Source: Rhodospirillaceae bacterium
Lineage (GTDB): Bacteria; Pseudomonadota; Alphaproteobacteria; Dongiales; Dongiaceae
DNA: 64,000 bases
Direction: 5' to 3'
Assembly: GCA_008012315.1 (NCBI GenBank)
Contig: SSEL01000001.1
Location: 62,001-126,000, forward strand
This document shows, in pieces, positions 4,379-17,907 of this stretch (position 1 is its first letter; each line of letters starts with the position of its first letter). Both the position numbers and the translations under genes were made by a program. The notes under the pieces were generated by a model. It was not told the origin of the DNA and did no database searches. It was given only the letters and a program-made list of their open reading frames with translations.

Positions 4379-6472
4379 TTACACGATGCCCAGGGCCGTT
4401 TTACGGTTTGCGGCAGCGGCGCGCAGGATGCGATCGGCGATCATGCCGATCAAAGCCAGGCTGAGGCCGGCGATCACCCCCATGCCGGGATCGTTCTTGC
4501 CGAGGCCGATATAAATCTGCTGGCCCAGGCCGTCGGTGCCGACCAGCGAGGCGATCACCAGCATGCCCATGGCGAACAGGATCGTCTGGTTGATGCCAAG
4601 GAGGATTTCCGGAAAGGCATTGGGCAGTTTCACCTGCCAGAGAATCTGCGACCTGGTGCAGCCCATCGCCGTCGCCGCTTCGATCTGCGCGGCCGGAACC
4701 TGGCGCAGGCCGTGCTCGGTATAACGGATCGCCGGCACCACGGCGTAGAGGATGATGGCCAGCAAGCCGGTGAAATCGCCGACACCGAAGAACATCAGCA
4801 CCGGGATCAGGAAGACGAATTGCGGAATCGTCTGCAGCGTATCGTTGACCTGCCGCAGGACCGCCGATGCCCCATCCGATGCAGCGCCCCAGATACCAAG
4901 CGCCACGCCGATGACGATCGACAGGGTGACGGCACTGGCGCAGAGATAGACGGAGATCATCGCCTGCTGCCATTGCCCGGCGAGCAGAATAAAGACCTGG
5001 CTAACCAGCGCGAAGATCGCGACCGGCCAGCCCCCGCAGCGATAGGCGCAGGCGGTAACGAGGATGACGACCGCCAGCCAGGGCATGCCGGTCGTGCCGA
5101 CATAGAGGAAGCAGCCGATGACGAAGATCGCCGTGCCCGCGGTCATCGAGCGATAACGGGCAGCTGCCAGCGCAGCCGCCGCGAGCAGGGTCCAATAGGC
5201 GGCGATGACCGGCGGGGTCAGCGCGAAGCCCCAGCTGAACGGCGTGACGACGCGTTCCAGCCCGATCTTGACGGGCAGGATGGCGAAATACAGCAGGCTT
5301 GCCTTCAACCCATTAAGGAAAACGGCATAGGTCGAGGTCACATAGGCAAGACCGGCATTGATGGATTCGGACAAACCCATCAGTCGGCCCTGCGGCGTGA
5401 TCGACAGCCGGGTCATGAGCAAGCTGCAGATCGCACCCAGCATCACGGCACCGATTGCCGCGAAGAGGAAATCGCGGCGGCTGAGGCGATGCGCCTGGAC
5501 GGCCCCACCCTGGGGACCACCACCTTGTGCGGCATCGCTTTGCCCGGCCAGCCCCAGGGTGATGCGGTCGAGCGACATCGCCAGCAAGGCGATCACCAGG
5601 CCGGATAAGATGCTGTCACCGAAATTCGCCCGCCTGATATTCGACAGGACCTCCCAGCCGATATCGTTGAAGCCGCCGATGATCGCCGAAATGATGATCA
5701 TCGCGAAAGCCGCCATGGTGGTCTGGTTGATGCCGAGCTTCAGCTGCGGCATGGCCGAGGGCACGTCGACCCACCAGAATTGCTGGCCTGGCGCGCAGCC
5801 GCAGATCAGGCCGGCCTCGCGTATGTCGGACGGTACGCGTTGCAGGCCCAGCAGCGTGTTCCGCACCATCGGCGGCGCGGCGAAAACCGCGCTCGCAATC
5901 AAGCCGACCACCGGGCCGAAGCCGAAGAGCAGCAGGATGGGAATGAGATAGGCGAAAGTCGGGATGGTCTGCATCAGGTCGAGAACCGGATCCAGGATGC
6001 TGCGTACCGTGAAGTTCCGGTAAGCCCAGACGCCGAAACCAAAGCCGATCACCGCCGCCAGCAGGATCGCAATAGACACCAGGGAAAGGGTATTCATGCT
6101 TTGCGTCCAGTAGCCGGCAACCCAGATGTAAAGCAATGTGAAGAGGGTCAGCATCAGGCTGCGCCAACCGGCGGCCTGCCACGCGATCAGGGCGGATAAA
6201 AGGATGAAGACCGGCGCCGGTACCCAAGTGAGAAGCTGCTGCAACAGATCGAGCGGCCAGGTCAGGACGAGGCTGACGACCCGGAAGAACGGCTTGGAGA
6301 CATCGACGAAAGCCGCCATCGCCGCGCCGGTCCAGTGGGATAGGGGCATGACCCAGTCCGCCGGATAGGCAGCCATCCATGGCACCAGGGAACGCGCCAG
6401 GATGGCAAGGATAACCGCCGCGCCCAGCAGCAGAAACGGCGCCGGGTTTTCCGCCATCCCGTGCCGCTTCAA
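4379..6472 (-). CDS. Glycine betaine/proline-type ABC permease, two ProW-like domains fused in tandem
   Basis: 697 aa; two BPD_transp_1 repeats (QTIPTFAYLIP...GINQTTMAAFAMIIIS and QTIPQFVFLIP...GINQTILFAMGMLVIAS); start TTG at 6472 or ATG at 6457. Confidence 0.9.
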   Translation of the reverse strand: MKRHGMAENPAPFLLLGAAVILAILARSLVPWMAAYPADWVMPLSHWTGAAMAAFVDVSKPFFRVVSLVLTWPLDLLQQLLTWVPAPVFILLSALIAWQAAGWRSLMLTLFTLLYIWVAGYWTQSMNTLSLVSIAILLAAVIGFGFGVWAYRNFTVRSILDPVLDLMQTIPTFAYLIPILLLFGFGPVVGLIASAVFAAPPMVRNTLLGLQRVPSDIREAGLICGCAPGQQFWWVDVPSAMPQLKLGINQTTMAAFAMIIISAIIGGFNDIGWEVLSNIRRANFGDSILSGLVIALLAMSLDRITLGLAGQSDAAQGGGPQGGAVQAHRLSRRDFLFAAIGAVMLGAICSLLMTRLSITPQGRLMGLSESINAGLAYVTSTYAVFLNGLKASLLYFAILPVKIGLERVVTPFSWGFALTPPVIAAYWTLLAAAALAAARYRSMTAGTAIFVIGCFLYVGTTGMPWLAVVILVTACAYRCGGWPVAIFALVSQVFILLAGQWQQAMISVYLCASAVTLSIVIGVALGIWGAASDGASAVLRQVNDTLQTIPQFVFLIPVLMFFGVGDFTGLLAIILYAVVPAIRYTEHGLRQVPAAQIEAATAMGCTRSQILWQVKLPNAFPEILLGINQTILFAMGMLVIASLVGTDGLGQQIYIGLGKNDPGMGVIAGLSLALIGMIADRILRAAAANRKTALGIV

Positions 6473-7557
6473 GAGACGACCTTCATATGGCCGCCCGGGA
6501 GCTGGCCGCGACCTGAGGGCGTCCCGCCTCGCCGTCCCAGTATTTGCAGGATGCGGTTGAGCGTGACGATGCCAACCGGCCTGCCATCGGTATCGGCCAC
6601 GGTCGCGGCACTGAAATCATTGCCGAGGCTTTCCATGACCTGCTCGAGATTGGCGCTTGCCGCGACCACCGGCCGGGCATTCGGATGATCGCCCGGGGAC
6701 GGTAACGGCTCCAGGATATCAGCGGCATATTGCACCCGCGCGATCGGCACATCGGCGACGAACTGCGCGACATAGTCATCGGCCGGATTGAGGACGATCT
6801 CCTGCGGCGTCCCGACCTGCACGATGAAGCCGTCTTTCATGATGGCAATGCGGTGAGCGAGGCGGACCGCTTCCAGCACGTCATGGGTGACGAAGACCAC
6901 CGTCTTGCGCAGCTGTCGCTGCAGGCGCAGGAACTCATCCTGCAATTGCCGGCGGATCAGCGGATCGAGCGCGCTGAACGGTTCGTCGAGGAACCATAAT
7001 TCCGGCTGCACCGCCAAGGAGCGGGCGATGCCAACGCGCTGCTGCTGGCCGCCGGACAATTGGCGCGGATAGGCGTCTTCGCGCCCGTCGAGTCCGACCA
7101 GGCGAATCATCTCGTCGGCCCGGGCATGGCGCTTCGCCAAGGCGACGCCCTGCGTCTTCAACGGAAACGCGACGTTCTCGCGCACCGTCAAATGCGGCAA
7201 CAGGCCGAAATTCTGGAACACCATGCCGATGCGATGCCGGCGGATCTGGATCAGTTCCTTCGGCGAGGCCGCCAGCAGGTCCTGTCCGTCGAGCAGGATC
7301 TCGCCGGCTGTCGCATCGATCAGCCGCGACAGGCAGCGAATGACGGTCGACTTGCCCGAACCGGACAGCCCCATGATGATGAAGATCTCGCCTTCCTCGA
7401 CCTCGAAGGAGACATCGGCGGCGGCGGGAATATGCCGTTCGTCGCGCAACCGCCGGGCAAGCGCCGGCGGATCGATCCGATAGCCCGCCGTGTCGAAATA
7501 GACTCCCGGCCGGCGGCCATAGACTTTCCAGAGATTGCGGCAGGCGAGCTTGATCAT
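6469..7557 (-). CDS. proV: Glycine betaine/proline-type ABC transporter ATP-binding protein (ProV-like)
   Basis: 362 aa; Walker A GLSGSGKST, signature LSGGQQQRVGIAR, Walker B LWFLDEPFSALD, C-terminal CBS-like region. Confidence 0.9.
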   Translation of the reverse strand: MIKLACRNLWKVYGRRPGVYFDTAGYRIDPPALARRLRDERHIPAAADVSFEVEEGEIFIIMGLSGSGKSTVIRCLSRLIDATAGEILLDGQDLLAASPKELIQIRRHRIGMVFQNFGLLPHLTVRENVAFPLKTQGVALAKRHARADEMIRLVGLDGREDAYPRQLSGGQQQRVGIARSLAVQPELWFLDEPFSALDPLIRRQLQDEFLRLQRQLRKTVVFVTHDVLEAVRLAHRIAIMKDGFIVQVGTPQEIVLNPADDYVAQFVADVPIARVQYAADILEPLPSPGDHPNARPVVAASANLEQVMESLGNDFSAATVADTDGRPVGIVTLNRILQILGRRGGTPSGRGQLPGGHMKVVS

Positions 7558-7569
7558 CCGTCGATGGAC

Positions 7570-7968
7570 CTAGAATCGGTAATACTGCGTCTCACGCGGC
7601 GCATAGATCATGTAATACTGCTTGAAATGATCCAGGATATGCCAAGTGGTGGTCTGGTCGCGGGGGATGAAGAACAGATCGCCGGGCGCGAAGATATCCG
7701 CGCGCCCCGCCGCATCGACCAGCTTCAGCCGGCCTTCGATCACGATGCCGAGCTCATCATAAGGAAAGCTGATCGTTTCTCGGAACGGCGTGCATTCCCA
7801 GAAACCGACCTGCACATTGCGTTCGTCATTGTTATAAAAGAAATGGCCCTGCTCATCGGCCCGCCCTTCATCGATCCATTCGGGCTTGATGAAATCGGTT
7901 TTGACCAGCGGCAAGGTCCGATGCGCCGAAGGCTGCAACCGGATGAAACCCTTCAACGCATCGGACAT
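7570..7968 (-). CDS. Cupin domain protein
   Basis: MSDALKGF...; 'FPYDELGIVIEGRLKLVDAAGRADIFAPGDLFFIPRDQTTTWHI' cupin motifs; ORF-track start 8070 would overlap proX. Confidence 0.75.
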   Translation of the reverse strand: MSDALKGFIRLQPSAHRTLPLVKTDFIKPEWIDEGRADEQGHFFYNNDERNVQVGFWECTPFRETISFPYDELGIVIEGRLKLVDAAGRADIFAPGDLFFIPRDQTTTWHILDHFKQYYMIYAPRETQYYRF

Positions 7969-7999
7969 CGGTCTTGTCTCCCCTCGGATATAAGCAATG

Positions 8000-8992
8000 C
8001 TACTTCTGCGCGGCATCGATCCAGGGTTGCCAGACCGCCTGATGCTCGGCAATCCAGCGATCCGCGACATCTTCCACCTTCTGGCCTTTGCTTTCGATCT
8101 CGTAGGAAAGTTCCATGTCTTCCTTGTTGCCGATCTTGAAAGCCTGGATGAGCTTATAGGCTGCGGGCCACTTTTCCTTCATGCCCGGCCAGACCACCTT
8201 GACGATATCGCCGGCGGCCTCGCCGCAATCATAGGTCTTGTCCGAATTGGGACCCCATTTCGGATCGCTGTAGCAAGGATCGGCATATTTCGGCAGGTCG
8301 ACGACCTTGAGGTCGAGCTCGACGAAGATCGGATGCGGCCACCAGAAATAGACCAGGGCCGGCTTGCCGCTTTTCACCGAGGAGCGCAGCTCGGACAGCA
8401 TGGCGCCCTCGCTGCCACCGGAGACCGGCTTGAAGTCGATCCCCAGCGATGCAAGCCGGTCGGCGGTATGCATGTTGCCCCATTCAGGCGGAAAATCGAC
8501 CAGGCGGCCCTGCGGCATGGTCTCCGGCGTGGCGAAGGCATCGGGGCATTTCTGCAGCGCCTTGTAATCGGGCAGGCCGGGGCACAGCTTCTCGGCAAAG
8601 GCAGGATAGACCCAGCCGCCGCCGCCTTCGAGACCGGTGCTGCCCAGGCTTTCCAGCTTGCCGCTCTGGAGCATCGGCTGGAACCCTTCGCCGACATTGA
8701 CTTCCCAGATTTCCATGGAAGCGGTGAGTTCGCCGGCCGAAAGCGGCGTGAGCTGCGCGGTATAGCCCGCCGTCACATAATCGACGTTATAGCCCATCTT
8801 CTTCAGCAGCCGGCCGGTGATCTGGGTCAGCAGGTTCTGGCTCGTCCACTCGTTCATCGCCAGCTTGATGGGATCCGTCGATTCCGGAATGGTGGCGGCC
8901 GCAGCCTGTCCGGCCTGCAGCGCCAGCGACGCCGATCCCGCAATCAGAACGCAACTCAGCCACCGCCGCATGAAAGCTGCTGGATTTTTCAT
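8000..8992 (-). CDS. proX: Glycine betaine/choline-type ABC substrate-binding protein (ProX/OpuAC-like)
   Basis: 330 aa; signal peptide; 'KLAMNEWTSQNLLTQITGRLLKKMGYNVDYV' OpuAC pattern; same operon as permease and ATPase. Confidence 0.88.
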   Translation of the reverse strand: MKNPAAFMRRWLSCVLIAGSASLALQAGQAAAATIPESTDPIKLAMNEWTSQNLLTQITGRLLKKMGYNVDYVTAGYTAQLTPLSAGELTASMEIWEVNVGEGFQPMLQSGKLESLGSTGLEGGGGWVYPAFAEKLCPGLPDYKALQKCPDAFATPETMPQGRLVDFPPEWGNMHTADRLASLGIDFKPVSGGSEGAMLSELRSSVKSGKPALVYFWWPHPIFVELDLKVVDLPKYADPCYSDPKWGPNSDKTYDCGEAAGDIVKVVWPGMKEKWPAAYKLIQAFKIGNKEDMELSYEIESKGQKVEDVADRWIAEHQAVWQPWIDAAQK

Positions 8993-9158
8993 CTTACTCT
9001 CCCACGTTGCGTTGGTTTTTAGATAGCAGCTGGCGAACCCGATGACGGCAACGACGTCGAGCGGGCGTTAGTCATTGATCCGTGGTCCCACGGGATCGGC
9101 GCGATATGGCTGTTTCAGCCTAGCGGCGAAAGTCTGACATCGGGGTGGGCGCTTTTCC

Positions 9159-9178
9159 ATGGACCCTTTAGGGCCCAT
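9159..9178. promoter_or_regulatory. Palindrome ATGGACCC-TTTA-GGGCCCAT, candidate LuxR-type operator 1
   Basis: 8-bp arms with 1 mismatch, 4-nt spacer; between divergent proX and luxR-type gene. Confidence 0.7.
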
Positions 9179-9237
9179 GCCGTAGCCTGCCAAAAAACCG
9201 CATAAGCGGCGCGTGTAGCCAGTTCGCGGGGGGACGG

Positions 9238-10071
9238 ATGGCCGGGAAGGACGAGCGGGGTCTATATCCGTTGCTGACGCAACTCGGCATGGTTGCCGAG
9301 CGCGCCGGCGATCCGGTTTTCTACCGCGATCTGCTGATGGTGCTGGGATCGCATCTGCGCGCCGATCTCGCCATGGTGATGCGCTATTCCCGCCATCATG
9401 CGCCGGAATATCTCATTCACGATGGACTTTTGCCCGGCCATATGGAGTTTTATCTGCGCGGCCTCTATCGCGTCGATCCGATCTATCGGCTGTGCCGCGA
9501 TGAAAATGGGCGCGGCGTGAAAGATCTGACCGAAGTCAGCACGCCGGCCGAGCGCGCGGGCGACTATTTCAATATTTTCCTGCGCCTGACCGGCATGGCG
9601 GACGATCTCGCCTTGCTTTTCCCGATCGGAGGCGACGCCTCGATCGGTCTCGTCTACGAACGCAAGTCGCCGTTTCTCAAAACTGAGCTTGCCGCGATGC
9701 GGGGATTGTTCCCGTTGCTGGAAAGCCTGCACCGCCTGCACCAGAAGCTGAGCGAGGCGCAGCTGCGGGCGACCATCCGGCAGATCGGCGATATCGACGA
9801 AATGACCCGCAGCCCTGCCAAGCCTGGCCTGCCGCCGATCGATTACAAAACCGCTTTGGACGGATTCCTGCGTGATAAGCTGACCCCGCGCGAGCGTGAC
9901 ATCGTGCGGTTGATTCTGGTCGGGTATCCCAATGCCAAGATCGCCGAGCGGCTGGAGCTCAGCCTGAACACGGTGAAGAATCACAAGAAGCGGATGTACC
10001 TCAAGCTCGACATCACCACCGAACGCGAGCTCTTCCTCAATTTCGTCAATTTCCTGTTCCAGGACATCTGA
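9238..10071 (+). CDS. LuxR-family transcriptional regulator (C-terminal GerE HTH)
   Basis: 277 aa; 'KLTPRERDIVRLILVGYPNAKIAERLELSLNTVKNHKKRMYLKLDITTERELFLNF'. Confidence 0.9.
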   Translation: MAGKDERGLYPLLTQLGMVAERAGDPVFYRDLLMVLGSHLRADLAMVMRYSRHHAPEYLIHDGLLPGHMEFYLRGLYRVDPIYRLCRDENGRGVKDLTEVSTPAERAGDYFNIFLRLTGMADDLALLFPIGGDASIGLVYERKSPFLKTELAAMRGLFPLLESLHRLHQKLSEAQLRATIRQIGDIDEMTRSPAKPGLPPIDYKTALDGFLRDKLTPRERDIVRLILVGYPNAKIAERLELSLNTVKNHKKRMYLKLDITTERELFLNFVNFLFQDI

Positions 10072-10082
10072 TGTGGCGAGAT

Positions 10083-10108
10083 CCAATGGACCCGATAGGG
10101 TCCATTGG
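10083..10108. promoter_or_regulatory. Perfect palindrome CCAATGGACCC-GATA-GGGTCCATTGG, candidate LuxR-type operator 2
   Basis: 11-bp perfect arms, 4-nt spacer; shares ATGGACCC-N4-GGGnCCAT core with 9159-9178; 78 bp upstream of SnoaL gene. Confidence 0.8.
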
Positions 10109-10185
10109 CTTTGCCCCGGCAATGCTCAATCCTCCGTCAAGTCGATCGGCTATCGCGGCCGACAGGTTGAATGGAGTGACCTTTC

Positions 10186-10599
10186 ATGAGCCTACAGGCC
10201 CAACTCGAATCGTATTGCACGGCCTTTAACGACCGTAACCTCGATGCCGTCTTGTCGCTGTTTACCGAGCAGGCGCTTTTCGAGATGCCCTTGCTCGGCC
10301 AGCGCCTGATCGGCAAAGGCGAAATCGCCGCCGGCTTCCGCCGCATCTTCGAGGTGAGCCAATCCGCCACCATCACCCTGTCCGCCACCAGGGAATCGAA
10401 CCAGGTCGCCATCGCCGAGGGCAAAATGGTGGCGAAACTCCATCGCGACAAGACACCGGTCGAACTGCCGCTCGCCATGACGCTGGAGGGGCGAGGCGGC
10501 GAGATCGCACGGCTGTCGACCTATCTCGATGCGCGGCCCTATCGGCTCTGGGCCGACGGGCCGATCTTCGCCGCCACCAATTCTGCCGCCAATCAGTGA
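10186..10599 (+). CDS. SnoaL/NTF2-like protein
   Basis: 137 aa; 'YCTAFNDRNLDAVLSLFTEQALFEMPL...GKGEIAAGFRRIFE'. Confidence 0.75.
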   Translation: MSLQAQLESYCTAFNDRNLDAVLSLFTEQALFEMPLLGQRLIGKGEIAAGFRRIFEVSQSATITLSATRESNQVAIAEGKMVAKLHRDKTPVELPLAMTLEGRGGEIARLSTYLDARPYRLWADGPIFAATNSAANQ

Positions 10600-12116
10600 G
10601 CATGCCCATGTCGACGACCTATACTGCCGGGACTTATACCGCCGGAGGGGCACTCCGCGCCTATTGCGACGCCTTCGAGCGGCGCGCCGAGGCGGATTTC
10701 GCCGATCTCTTCGCCGAGGATGCGATCTTCGATCTGCCGCTGCATGACGGCCGGATCATCGGGCGCCAGGGCATCCTGAAGGAAATCCAGGTCGCCCTGA
10801 ACGGCTTGAAGAACATCCGGGTCATTCTCGATCACGTCATCGAAAGCGGATCGCAGGCTTTTGCCGAAGGCATGCTTCATGCCGAACATATCGGCATTCC
10901 ACCCCATGTCGATGGCACGCCGATGCGGCTGGATTTCAAGTTCGTCGCCATCGTCGAGGTGAAGAACGGCAAGGTGACGCGCTGGTCGGAATATTTCGAT
11001 ACCAAGCCGCTGAAACCGCGCGAGCGAACCCATCTTTATCCGATTTCGCGCCGCTCGCCTTATTGGGACGGTGCGGTGGCGGCCGGCGTTTCCGAATTCA
11101 TGGTCTATAACCACACCTACTTCCCGCTGATCTATCATCACTCGCCTTCCGAGGAATACACGGCTTTGACCGAGCGCGTGACGCTGTGGGATGTCGGCTG
11201 CGAGCGGCAGACCGAATTGCGTGGCCCTGACGCGGTGAAATTCGCCCAATACCTGACGACACGAGATCTGTCGAAGCTGAAGGCGGGTGATTGCAAATAC
11301 ACGCTGGTCTGCGATCCGGATGGCCGGATCATCTGTGACCCGGTCCTGCTGCATCCGATGAAGGATGTGATCTGGCTGTCCCATGGCGATGCCGATCTCA
11401 CGCTCTGGGCCAGGGGTATCGCCCTGCATGGCGACTTCGATGTCGCGGTCTGCGAGCCCGATGTCGCGCCGCTGCAAATCCAGGGACCGAAAGCTTTGGA
11501 GATGCTGCGCGACCTCGTCCAAGCACCGCTCGACGAACTCGGTTTTTACAAATGCACGCTGACCAAGGTAGCCGGCATCGATGCCGTGGTCTCGCGGACC
11601 GGCTGGAGCGGCGGTCTTGGCTATGAGGTTTTCCCGCTCTCCAGCAGCCGGGCCATGGAGCTTTGGAACAGCCTGATCGCTGCCGGCGAACCGCATGGCC
11701 TGATGGTCACCGGGCCGAATGTGTTCCGTGCCGTGGAAAAGAACGTCACCGATACGGCCTACCACTCGAATTCCGACATGAATCCCTATGAGGCCGGTCA
11801 TGGCCGCCTCGTCGACCTCGAGAAGGGCGATTTCATCGGCCGGCAGGCGCTGCAGCAGGTGGCCAGGGAAGGGGCCAAACGCAAGACCGTCGGCCTGCTG
11901 ATCGATGGTGAGCTACCGCTGCTCGAATGGTACTGGCCGATCACCGACCGGCGCGGCAATCCCGGCGAGGTGCGCTGGGCGGTTCATTCCTTCGAGCTCA
12001 AGCAGAATATCGCCATCGCCATCGCCGATGCGTCGCTGGAAGTCGGCGACAAGGTGACCATCCGGCATCAGGCAGGCAGCAGCGAGGCGACGGTGACTTC
12101 CCTGCCCTTCGTCTGA
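10596..12116 (+). CDS. SnoaL-like domain fused to GcvT-family aminomethyl/methyltransferase domain resembling DmdA
   Basis: 506 aa; N-terminal SnoaL-like region then 'YNHTYFPLIY...VTLWDVGCERQTELRGPDAVKFAQYLTTRDL...LAIQGPKA'-type GcvT/DmdA motifs. Confidence 0.8.
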   Translation: MSMPMSTTYTAGTYTAGGALRAYCDAFERRAEADFADLFAEDAIFDLPLHDGRIIGRQGILKEIQVALNGLKNIRVILDHVIESGSQAFAEGMLHAEHIGIPPHVDGTPMRLDFKFVAIVEVKNGKVTRWSEYFDTKPLKPRERTHLYPISRRSPYWDGAVAAGVSEFMVYNHTYFPLIYHHSPSEEYTALTERVTLWDVGCERQTELRGPDAVKFAQYLTTRDLSKLKAGDCKYTLVCDPDGRIICDPVLLHPMKDVIWLSHGDADLTLWARGIALHGDFDVAVCEPDVAPLQIQGPKALEMLRDLVQAPLDELGFYKCTLTKVAGIDAVVSRTGWSGGLGYEVFPLSSSRAMELWNSLIAAGEPHGLMVTGPNVFRAVEKNVTDTAYHSNSDMNPYEAGHGRLVDLEKGDFIGRQALQQVAREGAKRKTVGLLIDGELPLLEWYWPITDRRGNPGEVRWAVHSFELKQNIAIAIADASLEVGDKVTIRHQAGSSEATVTSLPFV

Positions 12117-12167: not shown

Positions 12168-12257
12168 ATTGGCGTCCAGGCCAGTACGAATGGCCAGCGG
12201 CGATGAAAAATGCTAAGCCTGCCGGGCTTATCAGTCACAGCCAGACGCATCGCCCGC

Positions 12258-13457
12258 ATGACGCAACCCGGCATTCAGCAACAGGAAAATGCTTCGGCAA
12301 GCCGCGATGTCCTGCACGGGGATGCGGACCGATCCGCCGCGCCGCGGGTCTGGCTGCTGACCGGCTTTCGTGCCGGCGACAAGGCGCAGATGCTGGCGCT
12401 GGCCGAAGCCTTGGGCTGGCCCTTCACGGTCAAGCGAGTCGCCTATCGGCCCTACGAACTCGTCACCAATATTCTGCTGGGCCCCAATCTTGCCGGGATG
12501 AAGCGCCATGAGTCCGATGCGTTGACGCCGCCCTGGCCCGATCTGGTGATCAGCGCCGGCCGCCGCAACGAGCCGATCGCCCGATGGATCAAGGCGCGAT
12601 CCGGCGGGCGCACACGCCTGGTACATCTCGGCCGCCCCTGGGCCGAGTCGCGGCATTTCGATCTGGTGATCACCACGCCGCAATATCATGTTCAGCCACG
12701 CGACAATGTACTCTGCATCGCCGCACCTTTGCATCAAGTGACGGCAACGCGGTTGGGCGCCGCGGCTGAACGCTGGCGCGATCTCGTCGCCCCGCTGCCG
12801 CAACCGCGCATCGCCCTGCTGGTCGGCGGCAGCAGCCCGCCTTACGTTTTCGATCCCGAGATGGCTGCCCGCCTCGGCCGGGTGGCATCGGCGATGGCGC
12901 GCCAGTCTCGCGGATCGTTGCTGGTCTCGACCAGCCCGCGCACCGGTTCCGCAGCCACCGCCGCCTTGCGCGACGCCATCGATGTGCCCTGCCAGTTCTA
13001 TGCCTGGCAGGCCGACCCCGAGACCAATCCCTATCTCGGCTTCCTGGCTTTGGCCGACGCCGTCATCGTCACCGGCGACAGCATGTCGATGGTGGCCGAG
13101 GCCTGCGCCACGGAAAAGCCGGTCTATCTCTTCGATATGGGCAAGGGCTGGAGCCGGATGCGGGCGGATCCGCCGGCCGTGCCGGAGTCAGTGCCTTGGG
13201 CCGAGCACGTCCGGCCGAAGCGGGTTTTGCATTGGCTGATCGCCCATTGCCTGCCACGGCGGGTCCGCCGCGACATCCGCCGGATCCTGCGGGCGCTGGT
13301 GGCCAATCAGCAAGCGTCGTGGCTAGAAGAGGAGAGCGGCTCGGATCGGCAGCAGCAGCCGCTCAAGCCGTCAGCCTCGACCGACCTGCCGCGTGCCGTC
13401 GCCGGCGTGAAGGCACTCTTCGCGATCCCCGCCGAGAGAAATTCGGCCGGCGACTGA
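12258..13457 (+). CDS. ELM1-family (mitochondrial fission ELM1-like) protein
   Basis: 'RVWLLTGFRAGDKAQMLALAEALGWPFTVKR...PPWPDLVISAGRRNEPIARWIK...VIVTGDSMSMVAEAC'; ORF opens at 12210. Confidence 0.85.
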   Translation: MTQPGIQQQENASASRDVLHGDADRSAAPRVWLLTGFRAGDKAQMLALAEALGWPFTVKRVAYRPYELVTNILLGPNLAGMKRHESDALTPPWPDLVISAGRRNEPIARWIKARSGGRTRLVHLGRPWAESRHFDLVITTPQYHVQPRDNVLCIAAPLHQVTATRLGAAAERWRDLVAPLPQPRIALLVGGSSPPYVFDPEMAARLGRVASAMARQSRGSLLVSTSPRTGSAATAALRDAIDVPCQFYAWQADPETNPYLGFLALADAVIVTGDSMSMVAEACATEKPVYLFDMGKGWSRMRADPPAVPESVPWAEHVRPKRVLHWLIAHCLPRRVRRDIRRILRALVANQQASWLEEESGSDRQQQPLKPSASTDLPRAVAGVKALFAIPAERNSAGD

Positions 13458-15501: not shown

Positions 15502-17907
15502 CTAAGGCTGTTCGACCAGCTTGGCGATGCGGCCCGCAACCCGTGCCAGATCATCCGGCGGACGGCGCCCACCGTCCCTGAACGGCTCGCCGAACCAGAC
15601 TGCCAAGCCATCCTCGACCAGCCGCCGGTGCACGGCCGTCAGGTCGCGATCATGGCCGATTGCAGCGAAGCGCGCCATCCAGTCCGCCAGCTTGCGCCGC
15701 CAGCGGCGCGCCGCCTGGCTTGGCAACAGCCCGGTCAGCCGATGCGCCCAGCGGCTGGCGCCGCCTGTTTCCGAGATGGGATAAATTGCCATTGGCCGGC
15801 CAAGACGGGCGATCTCCATCAGCATCGAAAGGCTGTCACTGGTCACCACGAAACGCGCGGCGAGGCCAAGCAGGGCGCGGTAGGGATTATGCAGGCCATC
15901 CGCCCGCCAGGGATAGAGCACGGCGCCACGCGGCAACTCACGCTCCAGCACGGCGATCGCTTCCGCTGGCGTGCGGCGGCTGGTGGTAACGACCAGCGAG
16001 CCGCCCTGCGTTGCCGCCAGCTTTCCAAGATCCTTGGCAAGGCGGCTTGCCGCCGCCGCATCGAACGGCACCGAGCCGGTCTGTCCGCCCACCAGCACGG
16101 CCGTCAAAGGCTGCGGCAGGGGCGCGAAGATATCACGCCAACGATCGGCCTCGGCAGCGATCGCGGTTTCGTCGATGCGTTGCAGCGGATAATCGATGCG
16201 CATCAGATTATCGCCGCGACAACGCCGGTAATGACCTGCCAGAACCGCCAGATCGAAACGCTCGATATGCCGCTTCGGCAGGCCGATCAGCACGATCTTG
16301 CTGCGCCCGTCCTTGCTGCTCCGGTCGGCTGATCCGGCGGCAGCCTGCGATTGCTCCTGGATCCAAAGTGCCACCATCGACATGCGCCGCCCGCTGGTGA
16401 TGACCAGATCCGGCCAGGGCGCTTCCAGGCTGTCGGACTGGGCCGGATCGATATGATCCAGCGAGGCGGTGACCTGCGGCTTGCCGAGAACATAGGGCTC
16501 GCGCACCTGGAGGCGCTTGATCTCATAGGGCCAGGGCAAGGCATCGGCGACGGCGCGGACCTGGGCATTGTCACCGGCCTTGTCGGCCAGGATTACCCAG
16601 ATGCGCGGTGTCTGTCTGGCCTCGCGCGGTACGGCGGTCGCGAAATCGACCACTGCATGATCGGCACCTTCGCCGGGGCGCGCTGCCGGGGCTTCCGCCG
16701 ACAGGCCCATCATCCGCCGCACGCGCCGGACGGCCTGCTGCAGATCGTCCATCGGCACCATATTCGCTACCTTGGCATCGGCCGCCGGAAGCTGCGGCGG
16801 ATCGGTCAGCCATTTGGCGCGGCCCGACCTGATATAGAGATCCTGCACCCGGCGGATGTCGCGGCTGCGGTTGAAGCGCTGGGCCGGCCGGCCGATCCAC
16901 CAGGCATAAGGCAGCCCCAGAATGCCCTGGTCCAGCAGTTGCGACAGGCGCCACCATTGGCGCACCCGCTTGTCGCGGCCGCGCGGCCCGTGCATCGCTG
17001 CCGGACCGCCGCCGAATTCGAACATATAGACCGGGCGATGCGCGTGGCAGGCTTCGGCCAGCATCGACATGCTGTCCGCCGTGACGATGAAGGCGTCGGC
17101 CAGGGCCAGGAAGCCGTGATAGGGGTTCTCGTCGTCATTCGCCCGCCAGCGGTAAAAATAGCAAGGCCGGTCGATCGCGCGCTCCAGCGCCGCCATCGCC
17201 CCACGCCCGGTCCTGGCGCTGGTGCAGACCAGAAGAGAGGCGCCCATGGCGCGGGCCAGCGCGCTCGCTTCCCGGCCCAGGCGTCGCGCCGTCCGGCGGC
17301 TGAAAATATAGGGGCCGCTGGAACCGCCGACCATCACCGCCAGATAAGGCGCAGCCAGCCCGCTCAGGCGCGGCACCCAGATTTCCGCTGCTTCATCCAG
17401 GCGCTTCGGCGTCACCGGATGCAACGGGAAATTATTGTGCAGCACATTGGGATGCGGCGGCAGGCGGAATTGCGGCGTCGTCACCACCAGATCCAATTCG
17501 GCCGGCGGCGTCCAGTAGCGGCCGAGCACGACGATCCGGGTGCGCCCCTCCGATTGTCGGCGAATCCACTTGGCCGGGGTTTCATTCTGCCGGCCGGCCA
17601 TGATGATAAGGTCCGGCCAGGGCGGCGTCAGCGGGCTCGAACGTCGCTTATTGAGGCCGATCATCGTCACCGCCCCCGGCAGCGCGAAGAACGCCTCATA
17701 CCAGTGATATTTGGTTTCCTTGACGGTGAACGACCAGCCGAGCGCGCGCGCCAGTCCCAGGCTTTGCGCGTGGTCCCCGGCCCGATGGCATTTCAGCACC
17801 CAGACCGTGGGTTGCCGTTCGACGTCCGGGTATCCGCCGGGATCGGCGTCGGACATGCGTTGGATGGGATTATAGGCTTTGGCTTCGTTGTCGGCTTGGT
17901 CGAGCAT
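15502..17907 (-). CDS. Tandem double-domain ELM1-family protein
   Basis: 801 aa with two ELM1 repeats (TVWVLKCHRAGDHAQSLGLARALGW... and RIWVILADKAGDNAQVRAVADALPW...). Confidence 0.85.
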   Translation of the reverse strand: MLDQADNEAKAYNPIQRMSDADPGGYPDVERQPTVWVLKCHRAGDHAQSLGLARALGWSFTVKETKYHWYEAFFALPGAVTMIGLNKRRSSPLTPPWPDLIIMAGRQNETPAKWIRRQSEGRTRIVVLGRYWTPPAELDLVVTTPQFRLPPHPNVLHNNFPLHPVTPKRLDEAAEIWVPRLSGLAAPYLAVMVGGSSGPYIFSRRTARRLGREASALARAMGASLLVCTSARTGRGAMAALERAIDRPCYFYRWRANDDENPYHGFLALADAFIVTADSMSMLAEACHAHRPVYMFEFGGGPAAMHGPRGRDKRVRQWWRLSQLLDQGILGLPYAWWIGRPAQRFNRSRDIRRVQDLYIRSGRAKWLTDPPQLPAADAKVANMVPMDDLQQAVRRVRRMMGLSAEAPAARPGEGADHAVVDFATAVPREARQTPRIWVILADKAGDNAQVRAVADALPWPYEIKRLQVREPYVLGKPQVTASLDHIDPAQSDSLEAPWPDLVITSGRRMSMVALWIQEQSQAAAGSADRSSKDGRSKIVLIGLPKRHIERFDLAVLAGHYRRCRGDNLMRIDYPLQRIDETAIAAEADRWRDIFAPLPQPLTAVLVGGQTGSVPFDAAAASRLAKDLGKLAATQGGSLVVTTSRRTPAEAIAVLERELPRGAVLYPWRADGLHNPYRALLGLAARFVVTSDSLSMLMEIARLGRPMAIYPISETGGASRWAHRLTGLLPSQAARRWRRKLADWMARFAAIGHDRDLTAVHRRLVEDGLAVWFGEPFRDGGRRPPDDLARVAGRIAKLVEQP

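Follow-up and report, generated by a model that had tools for sequence, protein, structure and literature searches.

A candidate uptake-and-demethylation locus for a quaternary ammonium compound, with a SnoaL-GcvT fusion of the DmdA clan, in a Rhodospirillaceae bacterium

The stretch of DNA analysed here (the window) comprises 64,000 nucleotides of contig SSEL01000001.1 of a Rhodospirillaceae bacterium, and between positions 4379 and 12116 it carries a group of genes that may serve the uptake and demethylation of a methylated compound. The minus-strand operon includes, in this order, proX, a EutQ-like cupin gene, proV and a tandem proW, and the plus strand encodes a LuxR-type regulator, a SnoaL-like protein and a SnoaL-GcvT fusion, the last two genes overlapping by 4 bases (Table 1). 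Domain and profile searches confirmed the open reading frames (ORFs), domains and coordinates given for all of these genes in the original prediction, which had been made from the letters of the sequence. A domain search of the LuxR-type protein recognised no N-terminal domain.

Table 1. Genes and operators of the locus (positions in the window).
Feature	Position	Strand or setting	Evidence and remarks
Fused (tandem) ProW-type permease, 697 aa	4379..6472	(-)	BPD_transp_1 x2; TIGR03416 choline permease 397 bits (cut-off 363)
ProV-type ATPase with CBS remnant, 362 aa	6469..7557	(-)	TIGR01186 proV 340 bits, above cut-off
EutQ-like cupin (Cupin_3)	7570..7968	(-)	ORF opens at 8070 (7570-8070); start at 7968 more likely
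ProX/OpuAC-type substrate-binding protein, four-Trp box	8000..8992	(-)	OpuAC 5e-41; best solved relative TmoX 4xz6
Operator 1, ATGGACCCTTTAGGGCCCAT	9159..9178	proX-luxR gap, genes divergent	Palindrome; also 5' of luxR in G004, weaker in G008
LuxR/GerE-type regulator, 277 aa	9238..10071	(+)	GerE 7e-14; orthologues in G004 and G008
Operator 2, CCAATGGACCCGATAGGGTCCATTGG	10083..10108	luxR-snoaL gap	GGGTCCATTGG identical and in the same position in G004 and G008
SnoaL-like (NTF2-fold) protein, 137 aa	10186..10599	(+)	SnoaL_2 3.5e-12; adjoins the fusion in 6/6 loci
SnoaL-GcvT fusion, 506 aa	10596..12116	(+)	SnoaL ~1-140; DmdA-clan GCV_T + barrel domain 152-506

The GCV_T and GCV_T_C domains of the fusion both score above the Pfam cut-off (118 and 32 bits), and the DmdA-like motifs proposed for it agree with its best matches, which are the dimethylsulfoniopropionate (DMSP) demethylase model among NCBIfam profiles (NF009133, 267 bits, below the cut-off of 410) and DmdA 3tfh among solved structures (E 1e-49). 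In a maximum-likelihood tree of 49 sequences the six fusions retrieved from the genomes described below are united in a single long-stemmed clade (100/100), beside all DmdA and DmdA-like proteins, and the group of fusions, DmdA and DmdA-like proteins (n=40) is split from the GcvT and dimethylglycine-dehydrogenase-type domains (100/100). The fusion shares with DmdA the fold family or clan, ~33% identity and the Y-N, E-R-Q, D-P, R-x-G-W and E motifs. Residues Y171-N172, E203-R204-Q205, P249, W260 and S262 are common to the fusion and DmdA and not to GcvT, D248 (the catalytic Asp, D108 of DmdA) is common to DmdA and GcvT, and R-T-G-W337-S and E344 are also kept.

These likenesses raise the possibility of a system equivalent to DmdA, acting on DMSP or another sulfonium compound. 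Besides the profile and structure matches, the Trp of the R-S/T-G-W motif, reported as a key residue for DMSP (W171 in the numbering of PMC7487153), speaks for it. However, this Trp is replaced by Tyr in two annotated DmdA of the tree and is therefore not diagnostic of DMSP. The real DmdA (3tfh, Marinovum and the Phaeobacter protein encoded beside dmdD) lie in a clade apart from the fusions, which also differ from them by an N-terminal SnoaL domain, and no dmdB, dmdC or dmdD neighbours occur at the locus. Many positions that are constant in DmdA are changed (including N107 to C247, K199 to G339, E238 to R378, R239 to A379, S246 to D386 and S323 to W461), so that, although many residues of the clan are retained, the fusion is not a DmdA.

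The nearest relatives found are single-domain DmdA-like proteins of Phaeobacter, Loktanella and Lichenihabitans (40-42% identity to the fusion), which have no SnoaL domain and are encoded next to other neighbours and other regulators. On plasmids of Phaeobacter inhibens P51 (L056) and Loktanella salsilacus (L057) the gene belongs to a conserved operon with an Lrp regulator, OsmC, enoyl-CoA hydratase and acyl-CoA synthetase. The proteins of these two plasmids constitute their own clade apart from DmdA, and may act on another substrate since other Phaeobacter DmdA adjoin dmdD. On a plasmid of Lichenihabitans psoromatis (L058) the relative (40% identical) is flanked by genes for methylenetetrahydrofolate reductase (metF), purU and folD, together with an FAD oxidoreductase and two ATP-binding cassette (ABC) importers, making up a plasmid-borne one-carbon (C1) cluster. 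The association with metF, purU and folD is as would be expected for a demethylase that produces methyl-tetrahydrofolate (methyl-THF).

The fusion might instead transfer a methylene group, as do GcvT and dimethylglycine dehydrogenase, with an oxidase encoded elsewhere and the SnoaL unit shaping the intermediate. The complete GCV_T and barrel domains would suit this chemistry, as would the abundance in the genome of oxidative N-demethylases that contain GcvT modules. Against it stand the position in the tree, with DmdA (a clade of non-oxidative enzymes) and apart from the GcvT and dimethylglycine dehydrogenase group, and the lack of a flavin domain and of any recognised H-protein gene at the locus, so that methylene transfer is considered improbable.

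For the most part, the stand-alone and the fused SnoaL units retain an acidic residue ahead of P-L, the pair E-G and the motif Y-(L/F)-D-(A/T)-(K/R), so that the pocket may be functional in each. These two NTF2-fold units might also pair with each other. No description of a SnoaL-bearing DmdA or tetrahydrofolate demethylase was found in the literature searched for that combination.

The transporter had been assigned to the type that imports quaternary ammonium compounds, and this holds: the OpuAC binding protein, ProV-type ATPase and ProW-type permease, with matches to the OpuAC, proV and choline-permease profiles, are accompanied by an aromatic cage, as in the ProXVW/OpuA type. ProX scores 200 bits with TmoX (4xz6), the binding protein of TmoXWV, and 29 bits with each of DmpX and ChoX. 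Its pocket was mapped from the published structures of TmoX (PMC8918994) and DmpX (PMC10030565). The four-Trp cage of TmoX is intact (W49, W96, W171 and W217), whereas Glu131, which hydrogen-bonds the oxygen of trimethylamine N-oxide (TMAO) in TmoX (PMC8918994), is Gly125, Phe220 is Tyr215, and the PN motif of TmoX is PH, as in OpuAC and ChoX. The TMAO pocket is accordingly not reproduced.

Although TmoX is the nearest solved structure to ProX, a system for import and demethylation of TMAO is highly improbable at this locus. The Glu131 to Gly change coincides with the presence elsewhere in the genome of a genuine TMAO demethylase (Tdm; 1158 bits, cut-off 1100) and of a separate TmoX-like paralogue (L086), and on these grounds the TMAO system was rejected. 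L086, one of three other TmoX-family proteins of the genome, has the REDWWYP and FNW motifs and the full pocket motif save Phe106. The fusion resembles Tdm in the C-terminal GcvT domain (116 bits to 9q59) and lacks the N-terminal domain of Tdm.

The binding protein bears on DMSP as well. Of the DmpX pocket residues Thr64, Glu113 and Tyr200, the first two correspond to Tyr77 and Gly125 in ProX and only the Tyr is kept (Tyr215), so the DMSP pocket is not reproduced either. The retained Tyr is the counterpart of the residue that contacts DMSP in DmpX (PMC10030565) and would favour a sulfonium ligand, but ProX is far more similar to TmoX and to the proteins of carnitine clusters than to DmpX. A DMSP system was rejected as the leading explanation on the basis of the profile cut-off, the clade, the differences at conserved positions and the similarity of the importer; it is regarded as quite unlikely, and the sulfonium substrate suggested in the original prediction is not favoured by these data. 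The same applies to the idea that the cupin is a DMSP lyase, which was discarded: the protein is a EutQ-like Cupin_3 member, its translation lacks the HxH metal motif looked for as a mark of cupin DMSP lyases (DddL/Q/W/K/Y), and the gene is not conserved in related loci.

The closest ProX relatives on plasmids (39-47% identical) point to another class of ligands, as four of the six regions read contain carnitine- or betaine-type enzymes. The regions of Shinella, Roseovarius THAF8 and Mesorhizobium include genes for BKACE and 3-hydroxyacyl-CoA-dehydrogenase-type proteins (which we take to be the counterparts of cdhC and cdhA), aminobutyraldehyde dehydrogenase, a ring-hydroxylating oxygenase and GlxA-type regulators, with a choline sulfatase in one of these three, and that of Roseovarius pelagicus encodes a choline dehydrogenase. 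The importer regions of Pseudohalocynthiibacter and Ruegeria THAF33 have no carnitine- or betaine-type neighbours. The ProXVW of the carnitine/choline clusters (Roseovarius, Shinella and Mesorhizobium plasmids) resemble that of the window in ProX (42-47% identical), gene order and a permease gene of ~2.1 kb, and differ in their regulators (GlxA-family or LysR) and enzymes (Rieske, BKACE and dehydrogenase), with no LuxR and SnoaL-GcvT. In the carnitine operon of Pseudomonas (caiX-cdhCAB-hocS) the first gene encodes a binding protein (PMC5806209). The Roseovarius pelagicus plasmid region (L077), with the nearest ProXVW relative, also comprises a luciferase-like monooxygenase, a 2-oxoglutarate-Fe(II) oxygenase and an ABC importer, and this neighbourhood resembles the surroundings of the SnoaL-GcvT pair in the bacterial family f35 (see below).

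Shared operators had been proposed to join the two halves of the locus. Near-perfect palindromes of the form ATGGACCC-N4-GGGYCCAT indeed flank luxR (9159-9178 and 10086-10105), the second having perfect arms of 11 bp. These are the two sites in the window at 0-1 mismatch, with 0.73 matches expected by chance at up to three mismatches (dinucleotide shuffles). The extent of the regulon was judged by a genome-wide search for the core pattern GGACCCNNNNGGGNCC. Two of its three occurrences in the 5.7-Mb genome fall in the locus; the palindromes are essentially confined to proX-luxR-snoaL. In all three genomes compared (that of the window, G004 and G008) the luxR-snoaL gap contains an identical GGGTCCATTGG, and 5' of luxR there is a related palindrome that is weakest in G008. 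The LuxR-type protein may be the factor that binds the palindromes. In G004 only, GTCATCCCCGCGAAAGCGGGGATC and its complement form a block of inverted repeats between luxR and the operator (L039:5590-5700).

Among 143 relatives the fusion was found in two (70-71% identity), G004 and G008, which belong to a single other genus within the family. Both have proX, proV, the tandem proW, luxR, snoaL and the fusion within ~11 kb and in the same relative orientation; the transporter genes are ~46-59% identical to those of the window and the whole set ~46-71%. No cupin gene was found in these loci. Genes for EamA and SMP-30 proteins separate the two halves, in G004 with a third binding-protein gene, and a second, choXWV-like importer adjoins both loci (ChoX-type binding protein, 378 bits, cut-off 379). 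A 385-genome sample of the class added a single fusion, and its relatives contributed another two (G351, G757 and G766, all of family f35). A genome-contig scan with the fusion returned just one relative, 30% identical. The stand-alone snoaL gene lies immediately 5' of the fusion in all six loci. In f35, the context of which was read in two genomes of one genus (G351 and G757), the pair is associated with an Opp-type transporter and a TetR regulator instead of ProXVW and LuxR, which suggests that the constant unit is snoaL plus the fusion and that importer and regulator are exchangeable. Its neighbours there encode PhyH, a luciferase-like monooxygenase and BKACE and, in G351, a protein similar to L-carnitine dehydrogenase (319 bits, below the cut-off of 414). 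The co-conservation anticipated for the two halves is hence found in G004 and G008 and breaks down in f35.

Transporter and enzyme could be uncoupled, with ProXVW serving osmoprotection or general nutrient uptake and the SnoaL proteins acting on, for example, an O- or N-methyl group of a secondary metabolite. The f35 pair without a ProXVW neighbour, the distance of more than 2 kb to a transporter that has no operator of its own in G004 and G008, and the existence of GcvT relatives that act as demethylases on aromatic ethers and methylenedioxy rings (PMC5547118) are in line with this explanation. The divergent promoters of the window share one operator type, however, and the gene set recurs in two genomes of another genus; uncoupling is unlikely, though it deserves more weight than the DMSP and methylene alternatives.

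The interpretation tentatively preferred, with a confidence that falls a little short of even, is that the locus is a locally regulated unit which takes up a carboxylated quaternary ammonium compound and demethylates it in a folate-dependent reaction. ProXVW would import such a compound, most likely of the betaine or carnitine kind, and the fusion, probably with the stand-alone SnoaL, would move one N-methyl group to tetrahydrofolate. The methyl-THF would enter the folate C1 pool and the demethylated product would pass to the many dimethylglycine/sarcosine-dehydrogenase-type GcvT fusions of the genome (oxidative N-demethylases). The LuxR-type protein would bind both palindromes and control itself, the enzyme operon and, in the window genome, the divergent transporter operon. 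Enzyme activity, folate use and substrate class are predictions from sequence comparison, and the role would be catabolic rather than osmoprotective. The original prediction of uptake and demethylation of a methylated osmolyte is, as a whole, partly supported.

A number of observations weigh against this proposal. At the sequence level the GcvT domain retains D248 and most residues of the DmdA clan, but the Arg of the R-x-E motif (R239 in DmdA) is Ala379; Ala occupies this position in all six fusions and Arg in every other sequence compared, a difference that might alter the chemistry with folate or the substrate. Direct folate-dependent demethylation is chemically harder for a quaternary ammonium than for a sulfonium compound. 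AlphaFold2 models computed without an alignment were unusable (mean predicted local distance difference test scores: fusion 32, SnoaL 47). The position of TmoX Glu131, Gly in the window ProX, is Glu in all other ProX compared except ChoX, including those of G004 and G008, and the ligands may thus differ between related loci. In G004 and G008 no operator turned up in the vicinity of proX, so LuxR control of the transporter is supported in the window genome only. The f35 arrangement implies that the coupling of enzyme and importer is not universal; moreover, its carnitine-type enzymes lie on the opposite strand from the pair, and the carnitine dehydrogenase match is sub-cut-off.

Glycine betaine and similar osmolytes rank among the major sources of carbon and nitrogen, and removal of methyl groups from quaternary ammonium osmolytes has so far been attributed to Rieske oxygenases, betaine-homocysteine methyltransferase and cobalamin methyltransferases. 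The routes for glycine betaine include betaine-homocysteine methyltransferase (PMC3160333) and the cobalamin-dependent MtgBCD, with which a main aerobic route was resolved in 2025 (PMC12478193). A SnoaL-bearing enzyme of the DmdA clan encoded next to an importer of the betaine type suggests another route that is light on cofactors, and if a carboxylated quaternary ammonium compound is the substrate, this type of enzyme would be new for such compounds and the clan would serve more substrate classes than DMSP. A more specific and doubtful possibility is that SnoaL and the fusion constitute a two-subunit, cobalamin-independent, folate-dependent demethylase which directly demethylates a quaternary ammonium osmolyte (e.g., glycine betaine or a carnitine-derived betaine), SnoaL forming part of the active site.

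The genome of the window contains 21 GCV_T matches. Genomes G000, G004, G008, G351 and G757 each encode a genuine Tdm and have ~16-24 further matches to the Tdm profile, many of which are GcvT-domain demethylase modules, an unusually rich repertoire for methylated amines. Downstream of the fusion the window carries an ELM1-like gene (Mito_fiss_Elm1, 12210-13457), assigned by a domain search, and a minus-strand ORF of 801 aa (15502-17907) in which two more tandem ELM1-like copies are suspected by eye (PPWPDLII.AGR motifs).

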